This document shows, piece after piece, positions 5,867 to 21,846 of a stretch of DNA of 21,846 nucleotides. The position numbers and the translations under genes were made by a program. How positions within the stretch are numbered: the first letter of the stretch is position 1; each line of letters starts with the position of its first letter. Under the pieces are notes generated by a model. That model was not told the origin of the DNA. It did not search any database and saw nothing but the letters and a program-made list of their open reading frames with translations. Origin of the DNA: a virus. The stretch lies in IMG/VR virus record IMGVR_UViG_3300006484_000069, positions 1-21,846 of that record; one strand, written 5' to 3'.

Positions 5867-5883
5867 AATATTTTTCTCATTTA

Positions 5884-7269: not shown

Positions 7270-7282
7270 ATTAATCTCTCTT

Positions 7283-7693
7283 TTATGTATTTGCCGTTTC
7301 TAAAACGCTCAATACTAATTGAAGTGTACTTGTACTACTACCATATGCACGGACACTATCGAGTTGTTCTAAAATTAATTTTCCAGTTAGCACCGATGCA
7401 GAGTCTCCAGCAGGAATTGCAAAATTCTTCACTAATAAGCTATCAGTATTTCCAGTTTGAGCACCGTTCCCCTGAGCGTCTGATAATATTGGTCTATTTC
7501 TATGATGCATAAAACTACAATATTGTGTTTGTGTACTAATATTTGCTAATTGGGCCATTAGAATAATTGAAGTTACTCCGATTGGTGCTGTATATACCGT
7601 AGAAGTACTAACTCCGTTATAATTAGAATACGTAGGTAATGCTACCAACACTGTTGTTTTTGTTTTAAATGTGTTTAATGGAATTAACGCCAT
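7283..7693 (-). CDS. Small conserved virion-type protein (136 aa)
   Basis: Function unknown. The N-terminus (MALIPLNTFKTKT) leads into a predicted beta-sandwich: strands VYTAPIGVTSIILMAQLAN (33-51), a polar loop with FMHHRNRP (61-68), SLLVKNFAIPAGDSASVL (85-102), then LILEQLDSVRAYG and LQLVLSVLETANT at the end. I recall the PLNTFK start and LSVLETAN ending from small proteins in structural operons of cyanophages and related marine myoviruses. The gene sits 13 bases after the 1826-aa gene and 13 bases before the 461-aa gene. AAGGAT lies close to the ATG. It could be a baseplate, neck or fibre-attachment piece. No signal peptide or membrane segment is seen. Confidence 0.7.
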   Translation of the reverse strand: MALIPLNTFKTKTTVLVALPTYSNYNGVSTSTVYTAPIGVTSIILMAQLANISTQTQYCSFMHHRNRPILSDAQGNGAQTGNTDSLLVKNFAIPAGDSASVLTGKLILEQLDSVRAYGSSTSTLQLVLSVLETANT

Positions 7694-7706
7694 AATTTAT
7701 CCTTTT

Positions 7707-10700
7707 TTAAAATCCGCCGCCGCCTTCAATTGCTAGAATGAACGGAGTCATATTAGCAAATAAAGATTTAGTAAATGTTCTACCGCTTAGAACACCTGTT
7801 GCTTGACTAATTACCAATCCTGGACCAATTCGGAAATCGCCGTTCTGGTCAGTGGATGTAAAGAATACTTTACCACTATCCAGTTGTACAACTTCTTTAC
7901 TTTGTACAGGATCTGCAACGCCTCGTTGCGGTAATGCTCCATAATTAGTACCAGCACCAACATATTCAAATACATATCCACTAGCACTGATATAACTGCG
8001 TTGATAGAAGTTAACTGTGGCACCATCTGGAAATAAATCTGTTCTTGTTACGTTTTCGCCTAATTGAACAATATGATGTGTTCCATTTCTTGACCAATAG
8101 CTTAATCCTGCCATTACACTGTTATATCTACCGCCCGTTTCTATATCGTAAATTAATCTTTGTAAAATTATTTTTATATCTCGTTGACATTTAAACTCAT
8201 CATACTGATTTATCAACGAAGGATTATTTATTTTTACACGAGCATTGATTTCATCGGCTAAAAATTCAATATTAGCTCTAATTAATACAATAGCATCGCC
8301 ACCGCCCTGAACAGGAGGACCCGATTTAGTTCGTTGACTTGGCTTAATAACAGCTTCAGCGGCATTAATATCAGCAGCATTGATAATATTTTTCATTTCT
8401 GCAAATCTTAGATCAATAAATGTAGTTGCTGCACCACCACGTGATACTAATGTAGCAGTAGTTTGATATGTAGGTACACCTTTATTATTTCCACTAGGCC
8501 CGGATGTTTGTAATCGTGTAATCAATTGATTATTAACAATTTGATTAGTTAATGTGTTTAAAAAGGTTAATGCTTGAATATGTGCAGGAACTTGATTAAT
8601 TGTTACACCTATTGATGCTGTTGTTAATATATTAATTCCTGCTGGTTTAGGATTGTCTCCAACATTGCTGCTTAAAACTGTATAGTAAGCATTTCCACAG
8701 AAATATAAATCAAAGTAATTATTATTATAACTGTTTAAAGTATTCGATGGATCAGATCCACCACTACTCAATGCATAATTTAGTGTAACACTTTGATATC
8801 CAAGTGCAGTTACTACAGTTCCGCTAGCCGCATACAATAAACCATTTGTTCCAGTTTGACTTGCATTTTGATCACGTACATATAAACTATTGCCGATAGC
8901 AATATCAGTTGTATCAATTCCTGTAATTGTAATACTACTAGTTGTTAATGTTCCTGTATTAGGAGCAGCATTTAGGAATCCAGGAAACCCTTGATCATTA
9001 GTATACGGAACTACACCACCTGTAAAATCTTTAAATGTTTCTGGTGGTATTACTTCCATGACCAATGATATATGTGGCCTATCATCTAGATCAGGTAGGA
9101 ACACTCTTACCCGACCGTTATTTGGCCAAAATCCGTTTGGATAATATATATTAAGCTCTGGATCATCTGGATATGATTTAAATGCAGGATTGTAAACTGT
9201 TCCGCTAAATTTACGTGTTCCGTATCCAGATGATAATAAACAAATATCTCCAAAGTTAGCATTACTGTTGACAATACTTGCAATACCACCGTTATCAGTT
9301 TGAACACCAATGGAACAGAAAATTGTAAACACAGAAACTAGCTGTGCATATCCGTCATTGGTAATATGAATTCCTCTACCACCTTGGTTAACTTGTGTAA
9401 ATGCATCATAGACATTCGACTGAATAGGACTTCTTGCAGATATTACTGCACCATCAACTAAGCTACCACCCATGCTACCTATTGCGTCAACTTTACGACT
9501 GTTCCAAGTAGATGCTCTGCCTGTATATTCTAAACTTAATGCTTCTACTTCTGCGTCTTGTTTTGGAAATATTAGTGTATCTCCAAAGTATAGTGTGGAG
9601 TTAGTACCAAACCCAATAGTTGGTGAACTTAATCCAATTAGACGCTTATTTCCGCTGATTGTTGATACAGAGGTCACCGTTGGTGAAATTTTTACATCAG
9701 ATCCATTTAATCCTGTTAATGCAAATAGGCCGCCTCCAGCATATGATATTGGTGCATATAATGGGCCTTTTTCAATTATATTAGTAATAATACCAAAATT
9801 ACGAGTCACCGCCTGCTGCGGCATATAGTCACCGCCATATTGAAAGAACGGGTTAATAACTTGAACCGCTGTTGTTCCAGTTTGCGATGTTACTGTGTTA
9901 TTAGCAATGATCTGTAATGCTATATTTCTAGTATAGTTAATAGCATTAGTTGTAGTAGTTTCTTGTCCGGCTATATAGTTATAACCCGCAGACCAATATG
10001 CTAATCCTGCCTCGATAGATTTTTGATTACCACCTAATAAAATGTCTTGACTAACCGCATCAACAATTAATCCAGTATCTCGGTAGCATGATTCTTCATC
10101 ATATGAAAATTTACCAGGATTGTAAGTTTGATCAATATACGCAATTACTTCTTCAACAATAAATGTTTTATTAGCTACCACATTTTTGTAAGCGTTGATA
10201 ACATTAATATCAGAACTCTTTATAAGTGAAATAGCAGTGCTAGAACTGGCATTATTTACATTTGTTATAATACTGTTAATTTTAAGTATTTTTGTATTCA
10301 ATGCTGTTGCTTCTGTAGAGGTAGCAGCAGTAAGAGATAAATTTTGTTTTATTCTTGACTGTAATGCAGTTACCTTAATATTTTGTATAATTTTTTGTGC
10401 TATTGTTGATAAATGTGTAAACGCATTTATAGTCTGTGTTATTTGACCGTGTATTGAGCTATTACTCGAATCAACTCCAAGATAATAAACGCCTGCTTGA
10501 ATACTTTGACGATTCCCCCCGTGTAATAAATCAAAACATACACAATCAATTATTAATCCTATATCATTTTTACATTTGTTTACATCATAATATGCCGCCG
10601 AATATCCTAGTCCGCCATTTGCAACAGAAGCTTGAATGTACGCATTTACTTCATTTTGTAAATAAATTTTATTATTTTGTAACGATGTAACAGCATGTTG

Positions 10701-13187
10701 AACACTAAGTAATTGGCTTGCTTCCCCGTTAGTAATAACACTATCACTCCATGTAGTGTTAATTTTATTAATAATATCTATAATTGTATTGAACAATGGA
10801 TTAATAATTACAACTTCACTATCAGTAGCAGGTTCTACGGTTGTATTTTGAGAATCACCTGAAAATCTCTGTACTAAATCATCAGCAGGTGTAATATTTT
10901 TTATAATTTTAATTGACAATTCTTTTAGATAACGAATAGCACCAGTGGTGGTGCTTAATTCTCTTAAAATAGCACCAGTATATCCACTTTTATTCCAGTA
11001 TTGAATTCCTGCAAAATTACTCTGTGTAAGTCCGTTATACAATAAATCAAATGCAATAGAGTCAACAACTAATCGTGTATCTCGACGACAGTCAATTTTA
11101 CTGTATGGAAATGATCCTGCATAGATTACATTATTAATATAGTTAATTGTATCTTCTTGTATAAACTTTCTGTTGGCTTGCATTAATATTTCGGCACTAA
11201 CAAATGCAGCATCGGGTCCTGTACTCTTATAAACTTCAGGAGCAGCACTTGGACCATTATTAATTATAGTATTAATGATTCCAAATAATGATGTTATTGA
11301 ATCACTTGCTATTCCACCACCAAGTAATACAGTGTTTCTCACTTGTGCAAATAATCCACCTGCAATGGTATTTGTACATGTAGTATTGGTTATAACTTCC
11401 AAACAACGAGATTTAAGATAATTTATAGCACTAGTAGTTTGTAGTTCTTGTCCTGCAATTAAACTAACTACCCCATTATAATACGATAGCCCACTTTCTA
11501 TAGCTTTCTGATTTCCGCCAAATGTTGCGTCATATGCAACATTTTCAACTAATATACCTACATCTCGTCGACATTTTTCTTGATTATATACAAATCTATA
11601 CCATATATTTGATGGGGTGCTTGCATTGTCTACTATCTGTTTATTAATATACTTAATAACTTGTTCTTGTAAAAATGGTTTACTGGCTAGTAATAAAGTA
11701 CGTGCATTGAAAAATCCTGGATTTTGTTCGCCTGCATTGATAGACATTCCAAGAACTATAGTACCAATGCTAGTGGATACAACAATAGTAGTGGTATTAG
11801 CTATCCAGGTACCTGTACCAACTGCCGCTGGTACTTGTACAGTTTGATTTGGTACAAACATAGTACCATCTTTGAGCCACGGACCGCTTTGATTGGTACA
11901 GTTTTGAATGTATGGAGAATGAAATAAGTCAATGCGGTCTTCACCAGTGAGTGGAGGAAATGCTGTTGCATAGGCACCCCTATTAAATCCTCGAGCATAC
12001 TGACCTTCTAACAATCCACTACGTCCATTTAAGAAAGTCATATAGTTAAGATAACATCCGCTGTCTACATGAAATAAATCTTGTGTTTTGTTAATTGGTT
12101 CAATGAACGTTGTACGGATATCACTGCCTCTAATACTAGTATATGGTTTCATTCTTAGAGGATTATCTTCTAAATAAAATCCAGCACTGACTAAAATTTG
12201 TGTGCCTGGTTGATAGTATGGACTATTAATTGCTGCTCCAATAGTACGGCAGGCACGACTTGCATCCATTGCACGACCGTCGTTGGTGTCATTACCGTCA
12301 ACTGTAACATATAAGGTATTTGTAACTACTGGTGCAGTACCAATTGGATTAGTACCTCGTACTCTAATGTCACCGTAAATATCTGTTAATCCTGCTTCGG
12401 GTTTAATTTCAATAGTGCCAGTAGTAGATGTAATTAATCTAGTATAGATATCGTGAACATAGGCTTCTGCCCATTGGGAAGAAGTATTGCCCAATTGTTG
12501 TTCAAGATCAACAGCAGGTAGTATATCTCCACCGATGGTCATTGTACTTGCAATACCAACACCACCTTTGACAACTAATGCACCGGTTTCTGTACTTGTA
12601 GATCTATCACTTTCTTGTACAATTATTCTATCTGTTTTTAATTTACCAGTGAAAGGATTATATCTTAAACCACTGTTTGCCCCTTCTTTATCAATGAATA
12701 CAATATTATAGCTAGCAGTAGTCAATACAAAAGTAGGGAAAAAATCTATATCAACATTAGTTGCAGTAACAACCACAGATAATGACGTATTAGCAGTTTC
12801 AATTCTGCCATATATAAATCCACCAACGTTTAAATCTTTTTCAATGCCAACGCCGCCAGATACGTATAATGATGCAGTATTTCTATTAGCAGGAGTATCA
12901 TATATATCTGTAGGATCATACGGGCGATTGTATTTGTTTCCAACATTATTTTTGCTAAGTATTCTTTGTTGTTCGTTATATATAAAATTCCAAGAACTGG
13001 TACTAGCACCTAGATTATAAGTTGATGAAGTTTTTGGTATTAAATTAGTAATAAATCTTGCAGGAACAGCAATTGTATTGGTAAAAGTGGCACCTAAAAC
13101 ACTGTTTCCTGAAATGGTCACAATTCCATTTGTACCACTAGATACAATTTTATAATCACCTGGTAAATTTAATACGTTAGTTGTCAT
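7707..13187 (-). CDS. Very large beta-helix neck/tail structural protein with helical C-x-R-D modules (1826 aa)
   Basis: Domains in order. Residues 1-290: fibre-like, with cassette copies at 104-123 and 201-220 and shaft motifs YNLGASTSSWNFIY (57-70) and QQLGNTSSQWAEAYV (230-244). Residues 292-400: start of a right-handed beta-helix (YVTVDGNDTNDG, then CRTIGAAI, then ILVSAGFYLEDNP). Residues about 490-1100: four copies of an alpha-helical module with the pattern FxxEExxxYI, C-x-R/N-D, (I/V)xD, GGN, SIxAGxxYW; Cys at 539, 700, 872 and 1034. Residues 1110-1340: beta-helix resumes (MGGSLVDGAVIS, AFTQVNQGGRGIHI, NSNANFGD). A fifth module lies near 1633-1700 (C1667, GGRYNS). The C-terminus (FFTSTDQNGDFRIG at 1775-1788, ending EGGGGF) matches endings I recall from marine T4-like phage structural proteins. 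GAGGA lies just before the ATG. No catalytic motif is evident; a structural role is inferred. Confidence 0.8.
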   Translation of the reverse strand: MTTNVLNLPGDYKIVSSGTNGIVTISGNSVLGATFTNTIAVPARFITNLIPKTSSTYNLGASTSSWNFIYNEQQRILSKNNVGNKYNRPYDPTDIYDTPANRNTASLYVSGGVGIEKDLNVGGFIYGRIETANTSLSVVVTATNVDIDFFPTFVLTTASYNIVFIDKEGANSGLRYNPFTGKLKTDRIIVQESDRSTSTETGALVVKGGVGIASTMTIGGDILPAVDLEQQLGNTSSQWAEAYVHDIYTRLITSTTGTIEIKPEAGLTDIYGDIRVRGTNPIGTAPVVTNTLYVTVDGNDTNDGRAMDASRACRTIGAAINSPYYQPGTQILVSAGFYLEDNPLRMKPYTSIRGSDIRTTFIEPINKTQDLFHVDSGCYLNYMTFLNGRSGLLEGQYARGFNRGAYATAFPPLTGEDRIDLFHSPYIQNCTNQSGPWLKDGTMFVPNQTVQVPAAVGTGTWIANTTTIVVSTSIGTIVLGMSINAGEQNPGFFNARTLLLASKPFLQEQVIKYINKQIVDNASTPSNIWYRFVYNQEKCRRDVGILVENVAYDATFGGNQKAIESGLSYYNGVVSLIAGQELQTTSAINYLKSRCLEVITNTTCTNTIAGGLFAQVRNTVLLGGGIASDSITSLFGIINTIINNGPSAAPEVYKSTGPDAAFVSAEILMQANRKFIQEDTINYINNVIYAGSFPYSKIDCRRDTRLVVDSIAFDLLYNGLTQSNFAGIQYWNKSGYTGAILRELSTTTGAIRYLKELSIKIIKNITPADDLVQRFSGDSQNTTVEPATDSEVVIINPLFNTIIDIINKINTTWSDSVITNGEASQLLSVQHAVTSLQNNKIYLQNEVNAYIQASVANGGLGYSAAYYDVNKCKNDIGLIIDCVCFDLLHGGNRQSIQAGVYYLGVDSSNSSIHGQITQTINAFTHLSTIAQKIIQNIKVTALQSRIKQNLSLTAATSTEATALNTKILKINSIITNVNNASSSTAISLIKSSDINVINAYKNVVANKTFIVEEVIAYIDQTYNPGKFSYDEESCYRDTGLIVDAVSQDILLGGNQKSIEAGLAYWSAGYNYIAGQETTTTNAINYTRNIALQIIANNTVTSQTGTTAVQVINPFFQYGGDYMPQQAVTRNFGIITNIIEKGPLYAPISYAGGGLFALTGLNGSDVKISPTVTSVSTISGNKRLIGLSSPTIGFGTNSTLYFGDTLIFPKQDAEVEALSLEYTGRASTWNSRKVDAIGSMGGSLVDGAVISARSPIQSNVYDAFTQVNQGGRGIHITNDGYAQLVSVFTIFCSIGVQTDNGGIASIVNSNANFGDICLLSSGYGTRKFSGTVYNPAFKSYPDDPELNIYYPNGFWPNNGRVRVFLPDLDDRPHISLVMEVIPPETFKDFTGGVVPYTNDQGFPGFLNAAPNTGTLTTSSITITGIDTTDIAIGNSLYVRDQNASQTGTNGLLYAASGTVVTALGYQSVTLNYALSSGGSDPSNTLNSYNNNYFDLYFCGNAYYTVLSSNVGDNPKPAGINILTTASIGVTINQVPAHIQALTFLNTLTNQIVNNQLITRLQTSGPSGNNKGVPTYQTTATLVSRGGAATTFIDLRFAEMKNIINAADINAAEAVIKPSQRTKSGPPVQGGGDAIVLIRANIEFLADEINARVKINNPSLINQYDEFKCQRDIKIILQRLIYDIETGGRYNSVMAGLSYWSRNGTHHIVQLGENVTRTDLFPDGATVNFYQRSYISASGYVFEYVGAGTNYGALPQRGVADPVQSKEVVQLDSGKVFFTSTDQNGDFRIGPGLVISQATGVLSGRTFTKSLFANMTPFILAIEGGGGF

Positions 13188-13204
13188 TCTCTGATCCTCA
13201 GATA

Positions 13205-13212
13205 TATTTATT
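13205..13212 (-). promoter_or_regulatory. Late-promoter-like box (AATAAATA) before the 1826-aa gene
   Basis: The minus strand reads AATAAATA, seven of eight bases of the T4 late element. It lies in the 27-base gap before the ATG at 13187. T4 spacing puts the start near 13199, giving a 12-base leader that begins with the GAGGA ribosome-binding sequence. The position is sensible but the match is short and AT-rich. Confidence 0.4.
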
Positions 13213-13214
13213 TG

Positions 13215-13739
13215 TTAATGTACTCTTAGTTCAATTGCATCTACCAACGCACTACATTTATGTGGCCAGTTTGGGTGACTTTGAAATCTTACTACCACAC
13301 CAAAATTTGAATTTTGTATATTTTCTATAGATAATACTGCTCCCCAGGTGTTAGTTGAGTCTCCGTAAATATTAGGAGAATCTAAATTTAAAGTAGCTTG
13401 ATTCTCCCCTAATAGATTTTCATCTAAACATAGTTGTACAGTTTCATCAGTTATTCTACCTAATCTATTCATATATAGTCGCATTTCAACACCCAAAATA
13501 GTATCAGGTATTATATTAAAATTAAAACCAGTAGCTTTTAAATAGTAAGTTTTTTCCACTAAATCGTGTTTTGGTTGTTTAGCAATATGTAATAAATCTC
13601 TTGATGTTTTTACAAATTTGCCATCACGATTTTTAATTGAATAAAACTCATTATCAGTTAGCCATGCTACGTGAATATTTTCAGCATTAGGTTCGGCATA
13701 TTGAGTTACAGATGTAGGTAATGTCCAATTGGAAGTCAT
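13215..13739 (-). CDS. Beta-rich virion-type protein (174 aa), function unknown
   Basis: No enzymatic motif is visible. Residues 65-115 (YYLKATGFNFNIIPDT, VEMRLYMNRLGRITDE, VQLCLDENLLGENQA) and 145-173 (FGVVVRFQSHPNWPH, then ALVDAIELRVH) form alternating strands, as in a jelly-roll-like beta-sandwich. Proteins with this GIxI/VEMRL...RxGRxTDxTVQL plus FGVxxRFQS layout occur beside fibre and neck genes in phages, where they are probably structural. It is the first gene after the terminator at 13778-13803. AAGG lies about 11 bases before the ATG. The next gene starts 27 bases after its stop. Carbohydrate or fibre binding is possible but unproven. Confidence 0.7.
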   Translation of the reverse strand: MTSNWTLPTSVTQYAEPNAENIHVAWLTDNEFYSIKNRDGKFVKTSRDLLHIAKQPKHDLVEKTYYLKATGFNFNIIPDTILGVEMRLYMNRLGRITDETVQLCLDENLLGENQATLNLDSPNIYGDSTNTWGAVLSIENIQNSNFGVVVRFQSHPNWPHKCSALVDAIELRVH

Positions 13740-13777
13740 ACCGTATTTACCTTAATGCATATACTACGTATTAAATG

Positions 13778-13803
13778 AAAAAAGGCTCCGGAGAGCCTTT
13801 TTT
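13778..13803 (-). terminator. Intrinsic terminator with UCCG tetraloop, after the 228-aa gene
   Basis: A perfect 11-bp inverted repeat, 778-788 against 793-803 of the 13-kb block, with a 4-base loop. On the minus strand the G+C core is GGCTC/GAGCC, flanked by A and T runs, and the loop reads UCCG closed by C-G (a UNCG-type tetraloop). It ends in a T run in both directions, so it could act bidirectionally. It lies 13 bases past the stop of the 228-aa gene. Confidence 0.9.
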
Positions 13804-13816
13804 ATTATTTACTATA

Positions 13817-14503
13817 TTAGTTGGTATCTGCAATAGTAACAACAGTACCTGTGGCTGCACCTAAAGTCCAACCGGTGGCAACACCAGTACTTACCAAGAA
13901 AGCGGTGCTTACTGTTGATTGAACTAAAACAACTTTACGTGCAGTTAATTTACGAACATAATAACTACTTCCGTTCCAATCTGTAGCAACCATGTTCATT
14001 TGTCCTACATCTAGCGTAGATGTAGTAACCAATTTACATTGACCTCGACCCTGTGCATTTTGTACAAAATAGCGACGACTTGCTTCTTGTTTTATAATAT
14101 CGCCATTTGATACAACTGAAGATCCTGTTGTTAGATACGAATTAAATACAATTGCATTTGGACGAGTAGAAGTTAATGTTGCTGTAGGTGTTGCTGAGCC
14201 GGTACCGCCAGCTAGTGATCCGAGAACAGTAACAGTTGGAGCTGAAAGATATCCAGTTCCTGATGATACAACTGCAACAGTACCTGCGGTGGCGCTGGAT
14301 GTAGTGAATGTTAATACTGGTTTAGTACCGCCGGTAAGTTGTGGTGCAGTAATATTTGCGGCTGAAATTGTGAATACTCCACTATTGGTCATTCCTGACA
14401 CGCCTGCGCTGACTGCGGCTACACTAGCAACACCTTCACCGCCAACGCCTCCTGATGATGCACCAAAATTACCAAAAAATGTCTTTTTAATTGGACGTCC
14501 CAT
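13817..14503 (-). CDS. Gly/Ser/Thr-rich accessory virion-type protein (228 aa)
   Basis: Starts MGRPIKKTFFGN, a beginning I recall from structural-cluster proteins of marine T4-like phages. Residues 13-38 are Gly/Ser/Ala/Val-rich. Residues 73-95 (GTVAVVSSGTGYLSAPTVT) match the GxGYxxAPTVT beta unit found in many phage surface proteins. The C-terminal half (residues 134-228) looks like a compact beta domain: DIIKQEASRRYFVQNAQGRG, MNMVATDWNGSSYYVRKLTAR, then GWTLGAATGTVVTIADTN. AAGGAG lies 8 bases before the ATG. The gene stands alone between the capsid terminator and its own terminator, with its own late-type promoter box, so it may be expressed at its own level. A decoration or head/neck accessory role is inferred only from position next to the capsid gene. 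Confidence 0.75.
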   Translation of the reverse strand: MGRPIKKTFFGNFGASSGGVGGEGVASVAAVSAGVSGMTNSGVFTISAANITAPQLTGGTKPVLTFTTSSATAGTVAVVSSGTGYLSAPTVTVLGSLAGGTGSATPTATLTSTRPNAIVFNSYLTTGSSVVSNGDIIKQEASRRYFVQNAQGRGQCKLVTTSTLDVGQMNMVATDWNGSSYYVRKLTARKVVLVQSTVSTAFLVSTGVATGWTLGAATGTVVTIADTN

Positions 14504-14526
14504 TTTGTTTCTCCTTAAAAATAAAC

Positions 14527-14562
14527 TAGTAGATTCAATCTACTACGCGGTTGGATTTCCGC
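14527..14562 (-). other. Structured 5' leader of the 228-aa gene (two hairpins)
   Basis: Positions 14527-14545 form a perfect 9-bp inverted repeat (TAGTAGATT and its complement) around a single base, so the RNA loop would need to open some pairs. Next to it, 14547-14550 (GCGG) pairs with 14559-14562 (CCGC). Both lie between the promoter box at 14592-14599 and the AAGGAG at 14511-14516. They may stabilise the message or tune translation; no riboswitch class is recognised. Confidence 0.45.
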
Positions 14563-14591
14563 ATAAACTCTAACCTAAGAGTGAACAATAC

Positions 14592-14599
14592 TATTTATG
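14592..14599 (-). promoter_or_regulatory. T4-type late promoter box (CATAAATA) for the 228-aa gene
   Basis: The minus strand reads CATAAATA, seven of eight bases of the T4 late element. It lies just downstream of the capsid terminator and upstream of the 228-aa gene. T4 spacing puts the start near 14586, giving a leader of about 82 bases that carries the hairpins and a good Shine-Dalgarno. The placement between a terminator and a gene makes this the most convincing promoter in the window. Confidence 0.55.
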
Positions 14600-14611
14600 T
14601 AATGGTCAACA

Positions 14612-14635
14612 AAAAACCTGCCGAAGCAGGTTTTT
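14612..14635 (-). terminator. Intrinsic terminator with UUCG tetraloop, after the major capsid gene
   Basis: A 10-bp perfect stem (14612-14621 against 14626-14635). On the minus strand it reads AAAAACCTGC, loop TTCG, then GCAGG and a T run. The C(UUCG)G hairpin is exceptionally stable and is known from T4 intercistronic regions. It lies about 21 bases past the capsid stop codon and probably ends the head operon message. Confidence 0.92.
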
Positions 14636-14656
14636 GTTTGTGTTACAAGTAACGGA

Positions 14657-15832
14657 TTACTTGAAACTTACGGTTCCGCTATTAATTGCCACACGACCTA
14701 AGTAGTCGGCAGCATTACCTAGAGAAGACGCAGTATTGTTCAACTCAACATAGCCGTAGCGTGTTAAGAAGCCAACTACTGGCTCAAAGGTTGCTGGATC
14801 TAGAACAACACCAGAACTCATTAGAGGAATGTATGGGCAATAGAACGCAGCAGCATCTGCTTCGCTTGTACCTTTGTATCCAACTAGAACTTGGTTGCCA
14901 TCTACTGTATCGCTTAGATAAGCATCAACATAGATACGCATTGCACCGTTCAATGTACCAACAAACTTAGTGTTTGTAGGAGCTTCGAATGTGCCTTCTG
15001 TTGTACGAGCAAAAGCAGAAGTAGTAGCACTTTGTAGAATTGTCAATGCTTGGTTAGAAACAACAGCCCAGTTACCAGAACCACGACGTGTACGTTGAGC
15101 AATTAAATTGCTTACACGGTTGATTTGGATAGCTAGAGCAGCGTGCTCATCACCAACGAATGTAGCTGTACCAGAAACTAATGACTGGTCATATGTTTCT
15201 TCAAGACTTGCTAAAGTGCGTAAGCTAGCTAGAATTTCTTGGTCAATTTCAGCAGTAATTTCTTGTGCTAAAGCGGCCATGATTTCTGCTTCGATATCAA
15301 TACCTTGTTGGGCTTGTGCATCTTGAGCAGCTTCGAATGTCCAACGTGCGCTTAGTTTACGTGACTTAGCTTCAACTGGTGTCTTCAAGATTTGGATGCT
15401 CATACGCTTGCCTGGTGTACCTTCTAAAGCAGAAGTTGCAGCAGCTCTGGATACATTATCACCAGAGTAAGCATTAGCAATCTTGAATGGGCTTAGGGCC
15501 TCTTCACCTGCTGTTACTGGATCACTACCACTAACGCCATCAGCATAACGAACACGTAGAGTGTGGATCTGACCAACTGGACCAGTCATTGGCTGAACGC
15601 CGATGATCTCGTTGGCAATAACTGTAGGCATAACACGACGAATAACTGGAAGAATTACACGGTTTAGTGTAGCAATGTTTCCAGCTGATGTTGCACCAGC
15701 AGTTGCGCTTTCAGCCAAATGACGGCGTGTATTCTCTAGGCATACGCCCATAGATGCACGACGGTTCCCTTGTAGGCCTTCAAGCAGAGCTTCTTTGGTC
15801 TCTGACCATCTTTCATTTAATAATTGTGACAT
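14657..15832 (-). CDS. 23: Major capsid protein, T4 gp23-like
   Basis: Forms the head lattice as an HK97-fold protein. Recognisable gp23 signatures: IGVQPMTGPVGQIHTLRVRYAD (77-98), VEAKSRKLSARWTFE (153-167), then DIEAEIMAALAQEITAEIDQEI (179-200), NWAVVSNQALTIL (254-266), VGTLNGAMRIYVDAY (291-305) and the C-terminal YCPYIPLMSSGVVLDPATFEPVVGFLTRYGY (331-361). Residues 38-42 (H-L-A-E-S) hold a (L/I)-x-E site of the kind cut by the gp21 protease, so a propeptide of about 41 residues is likely; LLE at 16-18 is an alternative. At 391 aa it is clearly shorter than T4 gp23 (521 aa), suggesting reduced insertion domains. AAGGAGA lies 5 bases before the ATG. No gp24-type vertex paralogue follows. Confidence 0.96.
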   Translation of the reverse strand: MSQLLNERWSETKEALLEGLQGNRRASMGVCLENTRRHLAESATAGATSAGNIATLNRVILPVIRRVMPTVIANEIIGVQPMTGPVGQIHTLRVRYADGVSGSDPVTAGEEALSPFKIANAYSGDNVSRAAATSALEGTPGKRMSIQILKTPVEAKSRKLSARWTFEAAQDAQAQQGIDIEAEIMAALAQEITAEIDQEILASLRTLASLEETYDQSLVSGTATFVGDEHAALAIQINRVSNLIAQRTRRGSGNWAVVSNQALTILQSATTSAFARTTEGTFEAPTNTKFVGTLNGAMRIYVDAYLSDTVDGNQVLVGYKGTSEADAAAFYCPYIPLMSSGVVLDPATFEPVVGFLTRYGYVELNNTASSLGNAADYLGRVAINSGTVSFK

Positions 15833-15852
15833 TTATGTCTCCTTGAATATAA

Positions 15853-16938
15853 TTATTTTAGACCCGCTAATTTGCGGATATCTAAGATGTTATCTAAGCC
15901 TACCTGTGGCTTGTTTTCTCGATTCCCAGTTACTTCAGAGCTTTCAGTTAGTGTTGCTTTCGCTGTCTTAACTGCGGCACCTTCCATAACAGTGGGTAGG
16001 TATTTCTCAAATGCTACTGACAATCTCTTGGTCTCTACAGATTCAAGTAATTGATTCATTAGCGCTCTTTTTTCACCAGTGATTGGTGATAACAACTCGG
16101 CCATAACTTGTTTACGTTCCATTAAATCTTTTGTAACACGGATTTCGCGGTCCTTAGATTCAACGATTGTAGACTTGTCTGTTAAGGCTTGTTTTGTTTC
16201 AGCAAGTTCTTGATCTTTCTTAGAAATAATCTTTAACAATTTACTTGTTTCAGACTTCTCATTTAGGAAAGACGCAGAATACTCTTGTGCAAACGCTTCG
16301 TACAACTTACGACCAAATGCATTGTTACGGGCACTATCGATATCTTCTTTCAATTGCTTGATTTCAGATTTCATTTGTTTAGTGACTGTAGCCTCTACTA
16401 CTTGTGCGCTACGTTGAATAAAACGGTATTTAATTTCTTCAAACTTACTCTTTGCTTCGCGAACTAACTTAACTTTTGTTTCAGCTAGGTCACGTTTGTC
16501 AACCGCAAACTCTTTAATTTCTCTTGCTAAAGCGTGTACAATAAACTGTTCTAATTTGCTAAAGTTCTCAGCAACTTTCTTACGATCGCTTTGGAACTCT
16601 ACAACTTCTTTGCCTAATTGTTTGATAACAAAACCTTCTAGTTTCTTAGCATCTTCAGCAATACGTTGTTGGTATGCTACTTTTGCTTCGGCTAGTGCTC
16701 GTTTGTCATTATACAATTCGGCCATTTCTACGGCCAATCTGTCGCTTAACATCTTGTCGATTGCTTCAACCATAACAGTTTTGTCATGACTGTATTTTTG
16801 TGCAAATTCTTCACGAAGTTCTGCGGTGACTTGGTCGCGATTCTCTTGAATTTTCTCTGCAAAGGCAGACTCAATGACAGACTTTACGTCTTCTGTCATT
16901 ACTCCTGACTCTACTAATTGTTTGAATGCGTCCAACAT
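15853..16938 (-). CDS. 22: Prohead core scaffolding protein, T4 gp22-like
   Basis: Expected to form the internal core around which the capsid assembles, then to be degraded by the gp21-type protease. The 361-aa chain is almost wholly helical and highly charged, with long coiled-coil stretches at about 30-290. An internal repeat is visible: DKRALAEAKVAYQQRIAEDA (78-97), DRKKVAENFSKLEQF (118-132) and DKRDLAETKVKLVREA (147-162), each followed by a segment such as FVIKQLGKEV or FIVHALAREI. The C-terminus is short and polar, then DNILDIRKLAGLK. The N-terminus (MLDAFKQLVESGVM) is of the type I recall in cyanophage gp22. GAGGAG lies 8 bases before the ATG, in the 18-base gap after the protease gene. 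Order protease-scaffold-capsid matches T4 genes 21-22-23. Confidence 0.9.
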   Translation of the reverse strand: MLDAFKQLVESGVMTEDVKSVIESAFAEKIQENRDQVTAELREEFAQKYSHDKTVMVEAIDKMLSDRLAVEMAELYNDKRALAEAKVAYQQRIAEDAKKLEGFVIKQLGKEVVEFQSDRKKVAENFSKLEQFIVHALAREIKEFAVDKRDLAETKVKLVREAKSKFEEIKYRFIQRSAQVVEATVTKQMKSEIKQLKEDIDSARNNAFGRKLYEAFAQEYSASFLNEKSETSKLLKIISKKDQELAETKQALTDKSTIVESKDREIRVTKDLMERKQVMAELLSPITGEKRALMNQLLESVETKRLSVAFEKYLPTVMEGAAVKTAKATLTESSEVTGNRENKPQVGLDNILDIRKLAGLK

Positions 16939-16956
16939 TTTTTTTTCTCCTCGGGC

Positions 16957-17586
16957 TTATTTTAGACCTTTAATAATTTGAAGAAGTGATTCCTTCAAAT
17001 ACTTCTGGGCCTTTGGATCTTCTTTTACTTCATTAGCAACATTGAAGGCACGGTTTCCGCCTCTTGTGTTCATGAGATGTTCATAAACAGGAGTTGGATA
17101 TGCACCAGGTGCGCTAGGTTGTGCAACTACATCTACTGTGATAATTTCAAAATCGGATACTTTGCCAGACATTTCGTCAACGTTGCCGCTGCCTCTACTA
17201 CTGACACCTAGTTTCACTCCGCTTTCAAGCATAGTACGAATTAAGTTGCCCATCGGTGTTGGCAAAATTTTCATCTTGCCATAACCATTAGGACCTTCCA
17301 TCCACATTTGAGTAATCATATGGGATACACGGTCCAAATTCACTTTTAAATCATCCGGATGATCTACTTCACCTAAAACACTGTAACCACTTTGTAGTTG
17401 ATCATTTAGTGTTTTCACAGCACGTTCAATTTCATCTACAGGGTAGACTCTTTGATTTGCATTGCGAATTCCACCTTGGATAGCAATACCTTTTAGATAA
17501 AGGCTTTTGCCATCCTTGTCATCCGACTCCATTACGATGCCGGATTGATCAAAACTTAGGTGTTCTCTTAGATAAGATACTTTCAT
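16957..17586 (-). CDS. 21: Prohead maturation protease, T4 gp21-like (peptidase family S77)
   Basis: A serine protease that cleaves scaffold and capsid precursors inside the prohead. At 209 aa it is close to T4 gp21. The fold signatures are present: LKGIAIQGGIRNANQRVYP (31-49), GEVDHPDD (72-79) with the probable catalytic His76, LGVSSRGSG (126-134) with the probable catalytic Ser129 or Ser130, and IITVDVVAQPSAPGA (148-162). Assignment of the exact nucleophile is by motif, not by alignment. The C-terminal 25 residues are Lys/Glu-rich and may be trimmed by self-cleavage. The ATG lies 13 bases after the acidic core gene; the Shine-Dalgarno is weak (AGAGCA). Confidence 0.95.
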   Translation of the reverse strand: MKVSYLREHLSFDQSGIVMESDDKDGKSLYLKGIAIQGGIRNANQRVYPVDEIERAVKTLNDQLQSGYSVLGEVDHPDDLKVNLDRVSHMITQMWMEGPNGYGKMKILPTPMGNLIRTMLESGVKLGVSSRGSGNVDEMSGKVSDFEIITVDVVAQPSAPGAYPTPVYEHLMNTRGGNRAFNVANEVKEDPKAQKYLKESLLQIIKGLK

Positions 17587-17599
17587 CTAGGTGCTCTAA

Positions 17600-18610
17600 T
17601 TAATTAGCTGGCTTTAAGAATTGTTTTACAGGACTAACACTGGTTTGACCAGCTTTGTCACCTGTACCAGAACCTACTGGGCCTGGACCGGAACCTTTCT
17701 TCTCAGCACCGTGTCCACCTTTAACAGCGGATAGGTTCTTAACACCCATCTTACCGCCAGGAACATTTCCATTACCACTAGCAAATTTTTCACTACCGGT
17801 TCTTGTAATACCATTGTTTACTTTACCTGGGCTTGTTCCGGTGTTACTTTGACCTTCGGTGGAACCTTGAACCAAGTTTTTACCGTTTACGCCTGCTGGG
17901 CCTGGCTTGTTTTTACCAGAAGCAATCGGGCTACGTCCTTCAACTGGTGCACCTTCTTTGTCACCAGTACCAGCACCTACGTACTGACCTTGTGATTTTT
18001 GGCTATTTTTTTCCCAGTCGTTACCAACTTTCTCCACGTATTCACGTGTCATGCGACGACCTTCAAATGCTGGCTTTCCCATCATGTCTCCCATGTTATC
18101 TTTTCCCATTTCTTCATCACCAAATCCCATGTTGGAGTTTTCACCATCTTGGGATTTTTCTAATTGAGCAAAGGCTGCTTCAAGTTCTTGAATAGCAGTT
18201 TTGATATCCATAATTGCATTATCTTCTTGTTCTTCCGGATCTTCTTCACCATCCATATTGTCACCACCAGCACTAATGCTTCGTTCAAAATCGTCGGTAG
18301 AGTCACCAGACTTGCTCATTGGATCGTCTTCGTCATCGGCTTCCATGCTGTAAGAATCTTCTAGATCCATGGACTCTTCCATATCGGTATCATCAGACTC
18401 TTCTACGTCATCAGCACCTTCTTCAACGGAATCTTCATCAGTTCCTTCTTCAGCTTCATCCATTCCGTTGGACTCGTCTTCTTCTTCTGCGATTAAATTT
18501 TCATAGATTTCTCTAGATTTCTCAACGACGATAGCGTGGAAAAGTTCTTGGGCTTTTTCACTTTCTTCATTAACGATGAGATCTAATAGTTGTTCAAACT
18601 TTGTAGACAT
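17600..18610 (-). CDS. Acidic prohead core-type protein in the gp68 position (336 aa)
   Basis: Three zones are visible. Residues 1-45 are helical (FEQLLDLIVNEESEKAQELF, then VVEKSREIYENLIAEEE), a start I associate with core proteins of T4-like phages. Residues 43-130 are extremely rich in Asp and Glu and probably disordered; a helix follows at 130-153 (IMDIKTAIQELEAAFAQLEK). Residues 200-336 are Gly/Ser/Asn/Lys-rich, basic and disordered, with GTGDK at 214-218 and again at 315-319. The gene lies between the 81-aa gene and the protease, where T4 has gene 68, but T4 gp68 is only 141 aa. Likely role: internal prohead core, cleaved during maturation; IAE and similar sites fit the protease. AAGGAG lies 10 bases before the ATG. 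Assignment to the gp68 family is by position and composition only. Confidence 0.6.
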   Translation of the reverse strand: MSTKFEQLLDLIVNEESEKAQELFHAIVVEKSREIYENLIAEEEDESNGMDEAEEGTDEDSVEEGADDVEESDDTDMEESMDLEDSYSMEADDEDDPMSKSGDSTDDFERSISAGGDNMDGEEDPEEQEDNAIMDIKTAIQELEAAFAQLEKSQDGENSNMGFGDEEMGKDNMGDMMGKPAFEGRRMTREYVEKVGNDWEKNSQKSQGQYVGAGTGDKEGAPVEGRSPIASGKNKPGPAGVNGKNLVQGSTEGQSNTGTSPGKVNNGITRTGSEKFASGNGNVPGGKMGVKNLSAVKGGHGAEKKGSGPGPVGSGTGDKAGQTSVSPVKQFLKPAN

Positions 18611-18652
18611 TGCGTGTATTCTCCTTAATTAGATTGCGCGGCACGGCTGTAT

Positions 18653-18672
18653 TGTGTTTATATTTAAACACA
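18653..18672 (-). other. Perfect 8-bp inverted repeat in the leader of the acidic gene
   Basis: TGTGTTTA (18653-18660) pairs exactly with TAAACACA (18665-18672) around a 4-base loop. On the minus strand the same bases contain TATAAACA at 18662-18655, one mismatch from the T4 late element, which would start transcription near 18649 and leave a leader of about 39 bases with AAGGAG. It may be a hairpin, an operator-like palindrome or a weak promoter; I cannot tell which. Confidence 0.4.
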
Positions 18673-18740
18673 TTTACATAAAGGCATATGAAACAGGCCT
18701 AAAACGAGTCATTATTGATCGTTTGAGACATTTTTTTGAC

Positions 18741-18766
18741 AAATTTTATTAATTTTAATAAAATTT
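18741..18766 (-). other. AT-only hairpin overlapping the stop codon of the 81-aa gene
   Basis: An 11-bp perfect inverted repeat (18741-18751 against 18756-18766) with a 4-base loop, made only of A and T. On the minus strand it is followed by GTC and an A run, not a T run, so it is not a standard intrinsic terminator. It could protect or mark the 3' end of the upstream message. Confidence 0.45.
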
Positions 18767-19010
18767 AGACTGGTGCTGCTTCAGGAGGAGGAGCTGCATA
18801 CATCTTTCTTACTAAACTTAACTCTTCTTTTTTTTCTTGTTCTCTTGCATCTCCGGCTTTGCGTAAGTCATTTAACATACGTAAAGTTAGTCTAGTTTTG
18901 CGAAGATCTTTTGATTTCAATACGCTAGTATCATTGTCAGAATTATATCTTAGATCATCAACTTGACCTGCTTGCTGACCGTCAAAATATATAAATTCAT
19001 TTAATAACAT
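18765..19010 (-). CDS. Small charged protein in the gp67 position (81 aa)
   Basis: Sits between portal and the acidic core gene, where T4 has gene 67 (80 aa, prohead core). The N-terminus is acidic (FIYFDGQQAGQVDDLRYNSD), the middle is a strongly basic helix (KDLRKTRLTLRMLNDLRKA, residues 34-52), and a mixed-charge helix follows (REQEKKEELSLVRKMY). It ends with AAPPPEAAPV, similar to the Ala/Pro-rich tail of the portal just upstream. The RKTRLTL block is one I recall from proteins downstream of the portal in marine T4-like phages. The length and place fit gp67, but the basic middle differs from the acidic T4 protein, so homology is not claimed. The stop of the portal gene is 8 bases upstream. 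No good Shine-Dalgarno is seen. Confidence 0.65.
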   Translation of the reverse strand: MLLNEFIYFDGQQAGQVDDLRYNSDNDTSVLKSKDLRKTRLTLRMLNDLRKAGDAREQEKKEELSLVRKMYAAPPPEAAPV

Positions 19011-19015
19011 AATAA

Positions 19016-19023
19016 TATTTATG
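19016..19023 (-). promoter_or_regulatory. Possible late promoter box (CATAAATA) at the portal stop codon
   Basis: Minus strand CATAAATA, seven of eight bases of the T4 late element, overlapping the portal TAA. T4 spacing would place the start at about 19010, the first base of the ATG of the 81-aa gene. That would be a leaderless message, in keeping with the lack of a Shine-Dalgarno there, or the match is coincidence. Confidence 0.3.
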
Positions 19024-20737
19024 CTGCGGGCGGTGCTTCTGGAGGTGCTGCACCAGCCTCTGCACCGGGTTCTGCAGGTGGTGGTGCTGCTGTTGCAGAA
19101 TTTAATCCAGAAATATCAGCACCCATTGCATTAGCAGTAATACCAACACTTCTAAGTTCAGCACTTGCTGGCAATGTAGCATCATCATCTATGTTTTCTT
19201 CACGCCATAATGTTTCGTTTTCTGCCATTTCTTCTGCACTTAAACCTAAGAATCTCTTGAGTGCAAAACGCTTACTGATCTGCGGAATAGCTATCATGGT
19301 ATTAAATGTATTAACACGGGCTGTATCCATTTCTGCTTGACGATAACTGGCAAAATTCTGTGGAGGATTAAATTTAACTTCAAAAATATTGCTATCTACA
19401 TTGATACCTTTGTTATGTAGATACAGTTTAAACTCAGTATCAAACTGTTCATTCATTAAGGATTGTAATCGTTCGCAATATTTGTTAAACCGTAACTCTT
19501 GTATATAGGCTGTTCCAACTCGTCCATCATTAAACGAACTGCCGCCGTCATCTGCACCAGTGGGTAGATAACTACTAGGAATACGCAAAGCTCTAAACAG
19601 TTTATTAGTAAAGTAACGAAGGTCATCAATTTCTCCTAAATTGGTGCCACCGGGTAATGTTTCAACTTTACTACCTCTACCTTCGGCTGTTTGAGGAAAA
19701 AAGTAATCTTCGTTGATACTTAATGGATTGTATCCAGCATCTACTACACTTTGACCACCACCTGTACTACTAGGAATTCGACGTTGATTTACTTCATTTT
19801 TAACACGTTCAACAAAACTCATGGCTAAATGGCTAGGCATATTACCCACATCAATATAAAAAATTCTGCGTTCTGGAGCACGTTGAATACGATAGATTAG
19901 AATAGCATCTTCTAATAATTCTTTTTGTTTATATACTTTAAACACACTTTCTAACAAACTTGTACCAAATGGAAAGTTATTATCAAGCCCTTCACTCATG
20001 CTAATATGTATTACATGTTTAGCATCAATAGCGTATTGATTTTCAGATTTTGTAAATCTGCTACCTGATATATTACTTGGATATGATCCTGTCATTCCTC
20101 TACTGCCGCCAGCACCGCCTTGTCCTGTACTATAACCGCCACCGGCATATTGACTGCCACCACCGGTGATATTACTTGGATTAATAGCAGTTGTTGCCAG
20201 TGTTTCTAGATTGGGATTGAAGTCACGAATCATATATTGTTCAGGCTTTTTACCTTCTGATTCGTTAACAACAATACGATCCACTTTGTTAGGATCTATG
20301 TACATCCACGCTTGTGTTTCAGGATCTCTGACAAAAAAAGTATCGCCGTATTTGAAACTGTTGCGAACAATTTTAAATATCCTAGTTTGAAATTTGTTTA
20401 GTTTAGTCCATTGCTGCATGTACTTTCTAATGATCTTAATCTCTGTACTTGTAGCTTGATCTTTAAAAAATACTCTAAATGGTGTTCCGTTTTCTTCGTT
20501 AGATTGGCTACAAAACTCTGCTAGAATATCTAGTGCAGCATTAACTTCACTGTCTGCATCCATGGTATCATATTGCCCATATCGTTCTAAACGATTTGGG
20601 TGTCCAGAATATACATCAGGCAAGTAACTTGAATAATTGCGGTGGCTAGGACTGGCATAAGCACCGGTTGAGCCGCTGACAGGACTTAACGTTCCCGATG
20701 CGTTAACTGGAGTAAAATATTTTTTCCATCCGGCCAT
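19019..20737 (-). CDS. 20: Portal vertex protein, T4 gp20-like
   Basis: Forms the dodecameric ring at the head vertex through which DNA is packaged and where the neck attaches. Length 572 aa against 524 in T4. Portal-family features: YSSYLPDVYSGHPNRLERYGQYDTMD (35-60), ALDILAEFCSQ (68-78), NSFKYGDTFFVRDPE (126-140), HVIHISMSEG (241-250), LLEDAILIYRIQRAPERRIFYIDVGNMP (274-301), LPGGTNLGEIDDLRYFTNKLFRALRIPSSYL (361-391) and FNPPQNFASYRQAEMDTARVN (456-476). A Gly/Ser-rich loop occupies 191-225, and residues 547-572 are an Ala/Pro/Glu-rich tail. AAGGAT lies 7 bases before the ATG and overlaps the stop region of the upstream gene, 11 bases away, so the two are cotranscribed. Confidence 0.96.
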   Translation of the reverse strand: MAGWKKYFTPVNASGTLSPVSGSTGAYASPSHRNYSSYLPDVYSGHPNRLERYGQYDTMDADSEVNAALDILAEFCSQSNEENGTPFRVFFKDQATSTEIKIIRKYMQQWTKLNKFQTRIFKIVRNSFKYGDTFFVRDPETQAWMYIDPNKVDRIVVNESEGKKPEQYMIRDFNPNLETLATTAINPSNITGGGSQYAGGGYSTGQGGAGGSRGMTGSYPSNISGSRFTKSENQYAIDAKHVIHISMSEGLDNNFPFGTSLLESVFKVYKQKELLEDAILIYRIQRAPERRIFYIDVGNMPSHLAMSFVERVKNEVNQRRIPSSTGGGQSVVDAGYNPLSINEDYFFPQTAEGRGSKVETLPGGTNLGEIDDLRYFTNKLFRALRIPSSYLPTGADDGGSSFNDGRVGTAYIQELRFNKYCERLQSLMNEQFDTEFKLYLHNKGINVDSNIFEVKFNPPQNFASYRQAEMDTARVNTFNTMIAIPQISKRFALKRFLGLSAEEMAENETLWREENIDDDATLPASAELRSVGITANAMGADISGLNSATAAPPPAEPGAEAGAAPPEAPPAA

Positions 20738-20748
20738 TATCTATATCC

Positions 20749-21846
20749 TTAAAATTTTAACAAATCACCACTAAGTGATTTAGTAGCACTCACGCTGCGT
20801 TTCATGTATTCTAAATTCTCTTTCATTACTTTTAGCATTTCTGTTGTCATGTTATTTAAGGTTTTTAGCTCACTTGCAACATTATTTCCACTATCTGCAC
20901 TGGCAGCAGAGCCGCCAGTACTTGGTGATGCAGTTGTGGATTCTGAAGGTGCTACTGCTTTACTAACCATACCAGCAATACCTATTCTAAGTATTTCGCC
21001 TGCTGATGGTGCAGCATCTTTTACTTTTTGTAAAGCACTGGCTACTAGTTCTAATTTGCCAGCATCGATGCCACTGAGTTTTGATACACCATCTGCTAAA
21101 CTGTTTATTGCCATTGCAGCAGGTATTCCAAATATTGCAAAAGGTGCAAAAGACATTAATCCAATACCCATTACTCCAAGAGATGCTCCTAAACTAGTAA
21201 GACCCCCTGTGTCAAGTTGTAGAAATTTCTCTAATCCGTCGCTAACACCACTAAGTTTTTCTATTCCATTAGCAAATAAAGTTAATGCAATACCTATAGG
21301 CAATCCAAGTACTGCAAATGGTCCCCATGCTAATAAACTTAGCCCTAATCCACCCAATCCAAGGGCTAGTCCTCCAAAATTACTTGTATCAACTTCTGAT
21401 AATGTTTTTAATCCTGTGGAGAATGTTGGTAATGCTAGTCCAATTAATGCCATGGTAGCAGCTATACCTGCTCCTACTCCGGCGATAATAATAGCTAAAG
21501 AGCCTGCTAAAAATGTTGCACCAATCAATTGCGCTGGCCCAAATGCCGTTAATCCTGTAGCTAATCCCTGTAATGCTGGACCAATACCGCCACCTGCTGC
21601 TTTACCAATAGCATCAAGTGGACCAGCACCTCCGCCACCTCCGCCACCTGCAAGTTTTCCAGCAGCACCCATTACGCCGCCGCCCAACAACTGGGCTTTT
21701 TTCAATGCAAACTTTTTAGCTTCCCACGTAAATACTATTGCTTTATAAGCGGCATAAGCTGCTAGCAATGAAGACAATGGCCCAAGAAAATCTATTACTT
21801 TTGCAAAACCTTTAGCTAAAAATCCTACAACACCAAACAGCATAGT
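20749..21846 (-). CDS. Tape-measure-like hydrophobic protein, C-terminal part (cut by window edge)
   Basis: The frame is open to the right edge; the codon before the first visible Met (21841-21843) is Thr, so the real start is probably outside. About 365 residues are visible. They are rich in Gly, Ala, Leu and Ile, with several hydrophobic stretches (about 1-40, 103-140, 155-192 and 213-250, counted from that Met) and a Gly run at 66-73. Residues about 155-209 and 213-265 are a tandem duplication: GLALGLGGLGLSLLAWGPFAVLG and LGASLGVMGIGLMSFAPFAIFG, each followed by LSG(V/I). A Ser/Thr/Ala linker (295-322) leads to a helix, LNNMTTEMLKVMKENLEYMKRSV, and the ending SLSGDLLKF. This ending and the amphipathic hydrophobic repeats suit a tail tape-measure protein, though a membrane-active virion protein is possible. 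Confidence 0.6.
   Translation of the reverse strand, partial: TMLFGVVGFLAKGFAKVIDFLGPLSSLLAAYAAYKAIVFTWEAKKFALKKAQLLGGGVMGAAGKLAGGGGGGGAGPLDAIGKAAGGGIGPALQGLATGLTAFGPAQLIGATFLAGSLAIIIAGVGAGIAATMALIGLALPTFSTGLKTLSEVDTSNFGGLALGLGGLGLSLLAWGPFAVLGLPIGIALTLFANGIEKLSGVSDGLEKFLQLDTGGLTSLGASLGVMGIGLMSFAPFAIFGIPAAMAINSLADGVSKLSGIDAGKLELVASALQKVKDAAPSAGEILRIGIAGMVSKAVAPSESTTASPSTGGSAASADSGNNVASELKTLNNMTTEMLKVMKENLEYMKRSVSATKSLSGDLLKF

Follow-up and report, generated by a model that had tools for sequence, protein, structure and literature searches.

Genes and features of the locus

The window, by which we mean the whole stretch of DNA that was analysed (G000), is a virus record of 21,846 bases that carries a T4-like head block on its minus strand. 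The block includes genes for the portal protein (Pfam Portal_T4, E 2.5e-110) and the major capsid protein gp23, and the gene order on this strand is portal, gp23, a gene of 228 aa, a gene of 174 aa and several genes for large fibre-like proteins (Table 1). The best-scoring named relatives of gp23 that were listed all belong to large phages, namely Sinorhizobium phage Phosso, Vibrio phage 2.275.O, GAP32, 121Q and PA5oct.

A first-pass annotation of the window had proposed that the 228-aa gene is an insulated unit among otherwise densely packed genes, and that its product, perhaps a decoration protein, is needed at a different level from its neighbours. The dense packing is seen for most genes, with most gaps measuring 8-27 nt (20 nt between gp23 and gp22), except that a second large gap of 154 nt, at 18611-18764, had gone unmentioned. 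This gap separates the 81-aa and 336-aa genes, and a TAAATA is found in it 51 nt before the start of the 336-aa gene.

The 174-aa gene, with which the next transcription unit starts, has its late box so close to the ATG that the message probably has no leader. The same layout recurs, by eye, before similar ORFs at 16 further loci (L002-L030; 37 rows). Two more TAAATA boxes on the minus strand, at 19016-19021 (5 nt before the ATG of the 81-aa gene) and at 278-283 (7 nt before that of the 90-aa gene), mark possible further leaderless late starts.

Table 1. Features of the 228-aa gene and its surroundings in the window.
Feature	Position	Strand	Remarks
gp23 major capsid gene, 391 aa	14657..15832	-	upstream neighbour of the 228-aa gene; Pfam Gp23, E 9.8e-98; PHROG 138
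Terminator behind gp23, loop UUCG	14612..14635	-	counterpart in 67/69 gp23 loci scanned
T4-type late promoter box CATAAATA	14592..14599	-	resembles TATAAATA-like box at about -10
freshwater-2 RNA (RF02980)	14501..14583	-	whole 5' leader up to the start codon
P1, 5'-proximal hairpin of variable sequence	14567..14582	-	from fold of the strand
P2, hairpin UAUGCGG/CCGCGUA	14544..14565	-	from fold and covariation
P3, hairpin	14529..14543	-	consensus loop UAGAA, window loop UUGAA
Shine-Dalgarno AAGGAG	14511..14516	-	belongs to the Rfam consensus
228-aa MGRP-family gene	13817..14503	-	conserved N-terminus MGRPIKKTFFGN; repeat-like insert; C-terminal core about 117-228
Terminator behind the 228-aa gene, loop UCCG	13778..13803	-	downstream terminator in 22/33 long-form relatives
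TAAATA box of the 174-aa gene	13744..13749	-	4 nt before ATG; start of the next transcription unit

The leader is a freshwater-2 RNA

The leader of the 228-aa gene matches Rfam family RF02980 (freshwater-2) over its full length (1-84) with 60.8 bits, against a gathering cut-off of 49.9 (E 6.8e-9 on a stretch of 501 bases and 3e-7 on the whole window), and freshwater-2 is the only Rfam family above its cut-off in the window. The alignment runs through the hairpins, the Shine-Dalgarno sequence and the start codon, which places the element in cis. The upstream sequences of the gene family share a block, and it is this block that Rfam names freshwater-2; R1, a covariance model made here, scores the window leader at 46.1 bits.

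The core of the element consists of the hairpins P2 and P3. Among 68 sequences, five of the seven P2 pairs are invariant, the other two show compensatory changes and 100% of the cells are paired. P3 shows compensatory changes in all four modelled pairs, with 91.3% of the cells paired in these 68 sequences, and of 116 distinct elements 110 show complete pairing of this hairpin. Taken together, six of the 11 core pairs carry double changes in an alignment of 52 sequences, and likewise among the 68 core sequences, of whose cells 97.0% are paired; their covariation score is 0.460, compared with 0.086 +/- 0.011 for shuffles and 0.02-0.063 for slid controls. Two of the five covariation measures were not clearly above shuffles, these being the number of double-change pairs (6 vs 5.1; 30/500) and of further pair types (17 vs 17.3; 374/500). 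Support for P1 is modest: 104 of 119 elements have a hairpin abutting UUAUG, but so do 62% of shuffled sequences, and some relatives are without P1.

Across 168 leaders, the predicted folds are more stable than those of mono-shuffled sequences (-19.8 vs -13.2 kcal/mol), and the Shine-Dalgarno sequence has a higher probability of being unpaired than with shuffled leaders (0.59 vs 0.44). The window leader taken alone folds no better than its shuffles (z -1.12; 32 of 200 as good). As the Shine-Dalgarno sequence is predicted to be mostly paired in 25 of the 168 leaders, and partly so in the window (0.35), the folds do not point to a uniform on or off state. By eye, a CTCC adjoining the ribosome-binding site could pair with that site in the leaders of L046, L077 and L090; these leaders are without the usual CC in the P2 loop, and in all three the predicted openness of the Shine-Dalgarno sequence is below 0.3. 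A pairing between the 5' end and the coding region was inspected and dropped as unconvincing, and one between the P2 loop and the Shine-Dalgarno sequence, weighed by eye only, was also dropped.

The RNA is found with a single gene family

Two pattern scans of virus contigs, both blind to the protein, retrieved the RNA in at least 160 rows with at least 161 matches, some of them on contigs that are near copies of each other. An ORF of the family of the 228-aa gene, which we call MGRP after its first residues, stands behind the RNA in 158 of the 161 matches listed (family profile E < 1e-3), in a test that is not wholly independent, since some family-profile rows share contigs with RNA matches. 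In the remaining three listed, the ORF is cut by the contig end after 0, 1 or 4 residues. An ORF start follows the ribosome-binding site in 160 of the 161 matches listed; 148 begin with MGRP, and the divergent starts MASN, MAKI, MARG, MANG, MARP and MGRA also match the family profile.

Loci were also retrieved by gp23 only. Among the best 80 of at least 598 such loci, 48 had at least 2 kb downstream of gp23, and a search with the covariance model made here, to which many of these loci had also supplied sequences, found the RNA in 43 of them, the exceptions being L032, L034, L080, L086 and L088. The gp23 loci, the window included, gave 59 RNA matches, of which six lie at contig ends (four of these with an MGRP start) and 53 have a testable ORF; 52 of the latter are family members, and the one that does not match, in L027, is cut at 69 aa. 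Starting from the protein, 52 of the 61 MGRP starts in the window and L002-L097 match a strict RNA pattern. In five of the nine misses the element can be recognised by eye, or by Rfam in the case of the window, and the four without the element directly upstream are second copies in L053 and L069 and the genes of PA5oct and Atu_ph07. The second copies (L053:4606 and L069:5009) are tandem MGRP genes without a leader; L137 has tandem MGRP genes that each carry their own freshwater-2 (483-522 and 1665-1704).

The RNA lies no more than 1 kb behind gp23 in 107 of the 159 RNA-retrieved elements listed, and 17 of the elements listed have at least 2.5 kb upstream with no gp23 there. Freshwater-2 did not exceed the cut-off in any of six cultured relatives, three of which, Phosso, PA5oct and Atu_ph07, encode MGRP homologues by profile; thus, the protein can do without the RNA. 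These homologues share the MGRP core but differ from the window in that their genes do not adjoin gp23. Upstream of the PA5oct and Atu_ph07 homologues (L096:6001 and L097:6001) the TAAATA box is kept, followed by a short leader without the RNA. A blastn search of cultured phages with the leader of L054 returned short chance pieces only, none covering 80% of the query. In cellular genomes, one for each of 84,980 species, a single common-form pattern, of a kind that would miss divergent copies such as that of the window, gave four matches, none of them convincing: they lie in unrelated places without a ribosome-binding site and MGRP gene, and the single one scored by covariance model reached 22.2 bits. 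On these sequence matches, freshwater-2 is dedicated to one phage protein family in the virus contigs examined.

Late promoter and terminators

The late-type box that the first-pass annotation had placed upstream of the gene is present, with the sequence CATAAATA at 14599-14592. It lies 88 nt before the ATG, and a T4-type late promoter at this position would be expected to start transcription about 83 nt before the ATG; the first-pass annotation had given the leader as 82 bases. In 81 relatives the box that precedes the RNA has the majority consensus GATAAATAC, and TAAATA is present in all 161 RNA-retrieved matches listed, at most 110 nt before the end of the pattern, with a chance expectation of about 0.037 per 80 nt. 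A homologue of the gp55 sigma factor is encoded on eight out of eight contigs of large metagenomic relatives (E 1.3e-8 to 1.3e-5) and by five of six cultured relatives, the window itself being a fragment without one. Only three of 81 gp23 starts have a box within 130 nt; its absence from the other 78 argues that the late promoter and leader are particular to the MGRP gene.

Both UNCG-loop hairpins by which the gene was said to be flanked are there, each with a loop of four bases and, on the minus strand, a run of U; they have 10 and 11 pairs, including four G-C pairs each. Weak single sites of this kind mean little, because a scan of positions 5000-21846 found 18 terminator-like sites compared with 9.4 +/- 2.8 in shuffles; one other site, at 18536-18561, has 11 pairs, three of them G-C. 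A terminator 3' of gp23 is a general feature of the group, being present in 67 of the 69 loci that have 500 nt or more downstream. Among 105 leader-bearing family genes a terminator was found downstream in 39, upstream in 55 and on both sides in 24, and the control value for a downstream terminator is 130 of 918 other ORFs; these rates are rough, because the test is a simple rule and the controls are any open frame of at least 150 aa. In the 33 long forms (at least 190 aa) the numbers are 22 downstream, 21 upstream and 16 on both sides. Insulation on both sides is thus not general among the relatives, and the late box and the RNA are the constant part. The view that the 228-aa gene is specially expressed gains from this, although by a feature that had been overlooked: given that most relatives are without one or both terminators by the simple rule, and that the late box accompanies every listed RNA match, the conserved structured leader speaks more strongly for special expression than the terminators do.

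The MGRP-family protein

The proteins of the family are built of a near-invariant MGRP start, an SGY-type repeat insert in the long forms and a core of about 110 aa. The Arg3 codon varies (CGT, AGA, CGC and others), which indicates that the start is kept as protein and speaks against the idea, which we considered, that the first codons are constrained as RNA; the Gly2 codon is GGA in 120 of 127 cases. The conserved N-terminal tail persists in the homologues without the RNA.

The window protein matched no Pfam or PHROG family at E 0.01, and a tblastn search of cultured phages gave no match; Tubulin_2 (Pfam, E 0.022) and phrog_7914 (E 0.46) were taken as chance. An alignment-wide search with 32 members matched phrog_460 in five, phrog_5342 in four and phrog_701 in three, and these were not used to name the family because those placed in one member lie over the repeat insert. 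The family profile, on the other hand, finds PA5oct gp102 (E 4.2e-16), Atu_ph07 gp498 (5.3e-15) and gp466 (1.1e-9), and Phosso 317456-318160 (1.8e-20). Since the record of PA5oct gp102 annotates it as a structural protein by ESI-MS/MS, the product of the 228-aa gene is likely, by homology, to be a virion protein. A second PA5oct match, gp299, is without such a note. In the accessible portion of the Atu_ph07 paper 131 virion proteins are reported; that of the MIJ3 paper names four virion proteins by MS, and the MGRP-family protein is not among these four.

The AlphaFold2 models are confident, with mean pLDDT values of 89.2 for the window protein and 88.2 for a short form. Comparison with solved structures gave no significant match of any kind (none at E 0.001; best Foldseek E 0.041; VIA Z at most 4.3), and pilins from a PDB sequence profile search (E 0.06) were rejected. 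The best non-significant neighbours are Tudor/KOW/SH3-like and the core is predicted to form small beta-barrel-like units, a hint only, as the list of neighbours leaves other folds possible. In a viral structure library seven entries matched at E <= 0.001; one of these is Atu_ph07 gp498, and the others are uncharacterised or unnamed. No likeness to Hoc or Soc turned up by sequence or by fold, in line with the first-pass annotation. Three parts of its interpretation are supported: transcription as a separate unit, with a late box of the gene's own and a terminator on either side; the place of the gene after that for the capsid; and a product that is likely to belong to the virion. The decoration role is a suggestion for which the solved structures gave no significant match.

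Discussion

The RNA family, its covariation, the late box and the dedicated gene family are established here at the level of sequence. What we infer for this phage concerns the transcription start, the action of the RNA on translation, its partner and the location of the protein in the virion. According to the model that we propose, a terminator would end the capsid message ahead of the 228-aa gene, and host RNA polymerase with a gp55-like sigma factor would start a new message at the T4-type late promoter. This message would carry freshwater-2 at its 5' end, encode a single protein of the MGRP family, which is most likely part of the virion, and stop at the second UNCG terminator. As the cis element extends as far as the ribosome-binding site, with no terminator separating the RNA from the gene, the RNA would most simply act on translation, P2 and P3 being situated just upstream of the ribosome-binding site and start codon. 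A partner that reads the invariant P2 base and the UAGAA loop of P3 may then set the amount of protein; the candidates are the ribosome, a host factor, a phage protein or the gene's own product. We consider the case for a single-gene late unit under translation control by freshwater-2, whoever the partner, to be evenly balanced, and this judgement takes in feedback by the protein and constitutive enhancement, which are also weighed separately below.

Gp32 of T4 and ribosomal proteins shut off their own translation by binding their leader, and it is conceivable, if rather doubtful, that the MGRP protein likewise binds its leader and shuts off translation once the needs of the virion are met. 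The pairing of one RNA with one gene family would fit such autogenous control, as would the predicted resemblance of the core to Tudor/KOW/SH3-like folds, some of which bind nucleic acid, but the fold matches have Z scores of 4.3 or less. Over 49 loci, RNA distance tracks MGRP distance slightly beyond gp23 distance (partial r 0.18, p 0.001), a weak correlation that could reflect mere linkage. Moreover, conservation is far stronger in the RNA core (mean distance 0.27) than in the protein (0.69). This would be odd if the protein were the reader, and it suggests that the ribosome or some conserved factor may be the partner instead; the retention of the N-terminal tail in homologues without the RNA also speaks against autogenous control.

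If, on the other hand, the leader served constitutively to shield the mRNA and hold its ribosome-binding site open, and so gave high output of a high-copy virion protein, its position at the 5' terminus directly after the late box would be explained, and so would the stability of the leaders and the openness of their Shine-Dalgarno sequences relative to shuffles. We nevertheless regard this as improbable on balance: the abundant gp23 is without such a leader, the invariant P2 base and the UAGAA loop suggest specific recognition beyond a stem, and P1 is missing in some elements. A metabolite or ion riboswitch captured by phages would also be compact and covarying and have conserved loop letters, but one structural gene family, and no metabolic gene, lies downstream, and the four common-form pattern matches in the genomes of 84,980 species include no full element; we therefore give this explanation very little credence.

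Returning to translation control by a partner, we tentatively put forward a wider reading, which we consider somewhat less likely than not. Freshwater-2 may be a phage-only class of translation-control RNA, dedicated to a single family of virion proteins in T4-like phages of jumbo type. Its invariant P2/P3 surface would be read either by the protein itself, as assembly feedback, or by a partner whose conservation exceeds that of the protein, possibly the ribosome or a host factor that is itself conserved, which would tune the dose of the protein relative to the capsid.

The soc and hoc genes of T4 are late monocistronic units, and the 228-aa gene resembles them in being a single late-promoted gene of virion type apart from the capsid operon; it differs from them in its conserved structured leader. 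The leaders of T4 gene 32 and T7 gene 10 are phage 5' leader RNAs that set the translation of one protein. They are alike in the role proposed here, whereas freshwater-2 has an Rfam family of its own. RF02980, which is said to have been discovered by Weinberg et al. in 2017, is catalogued as a cis-regulatory RNA of unknown function. The leader described here shares with it the full-length match, the hairpins, the Shine-Dalgarno sequence and the start codon, and differs from the catalogue entry in being tied to a phage late promoter and to one protein family. Our literature search on RF02980 and freshwater-2 listed no paper on them, the original description of the RNA lying outside that search. 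The RNA family itself is known, and what seems to be new within the literature searched is that it is linked specifically to a single family of phage genes.

An orphan Rfam RNA is thus given a home, together with a promoter and a gene family, and its function can now be tested directly. A family of likely virion proteins for which there was no Pfam or PHROG model receives a name. In a phage group that is widespread and uncultured, these results point to gene-specific control of the translation of a single structural protein late in infection.
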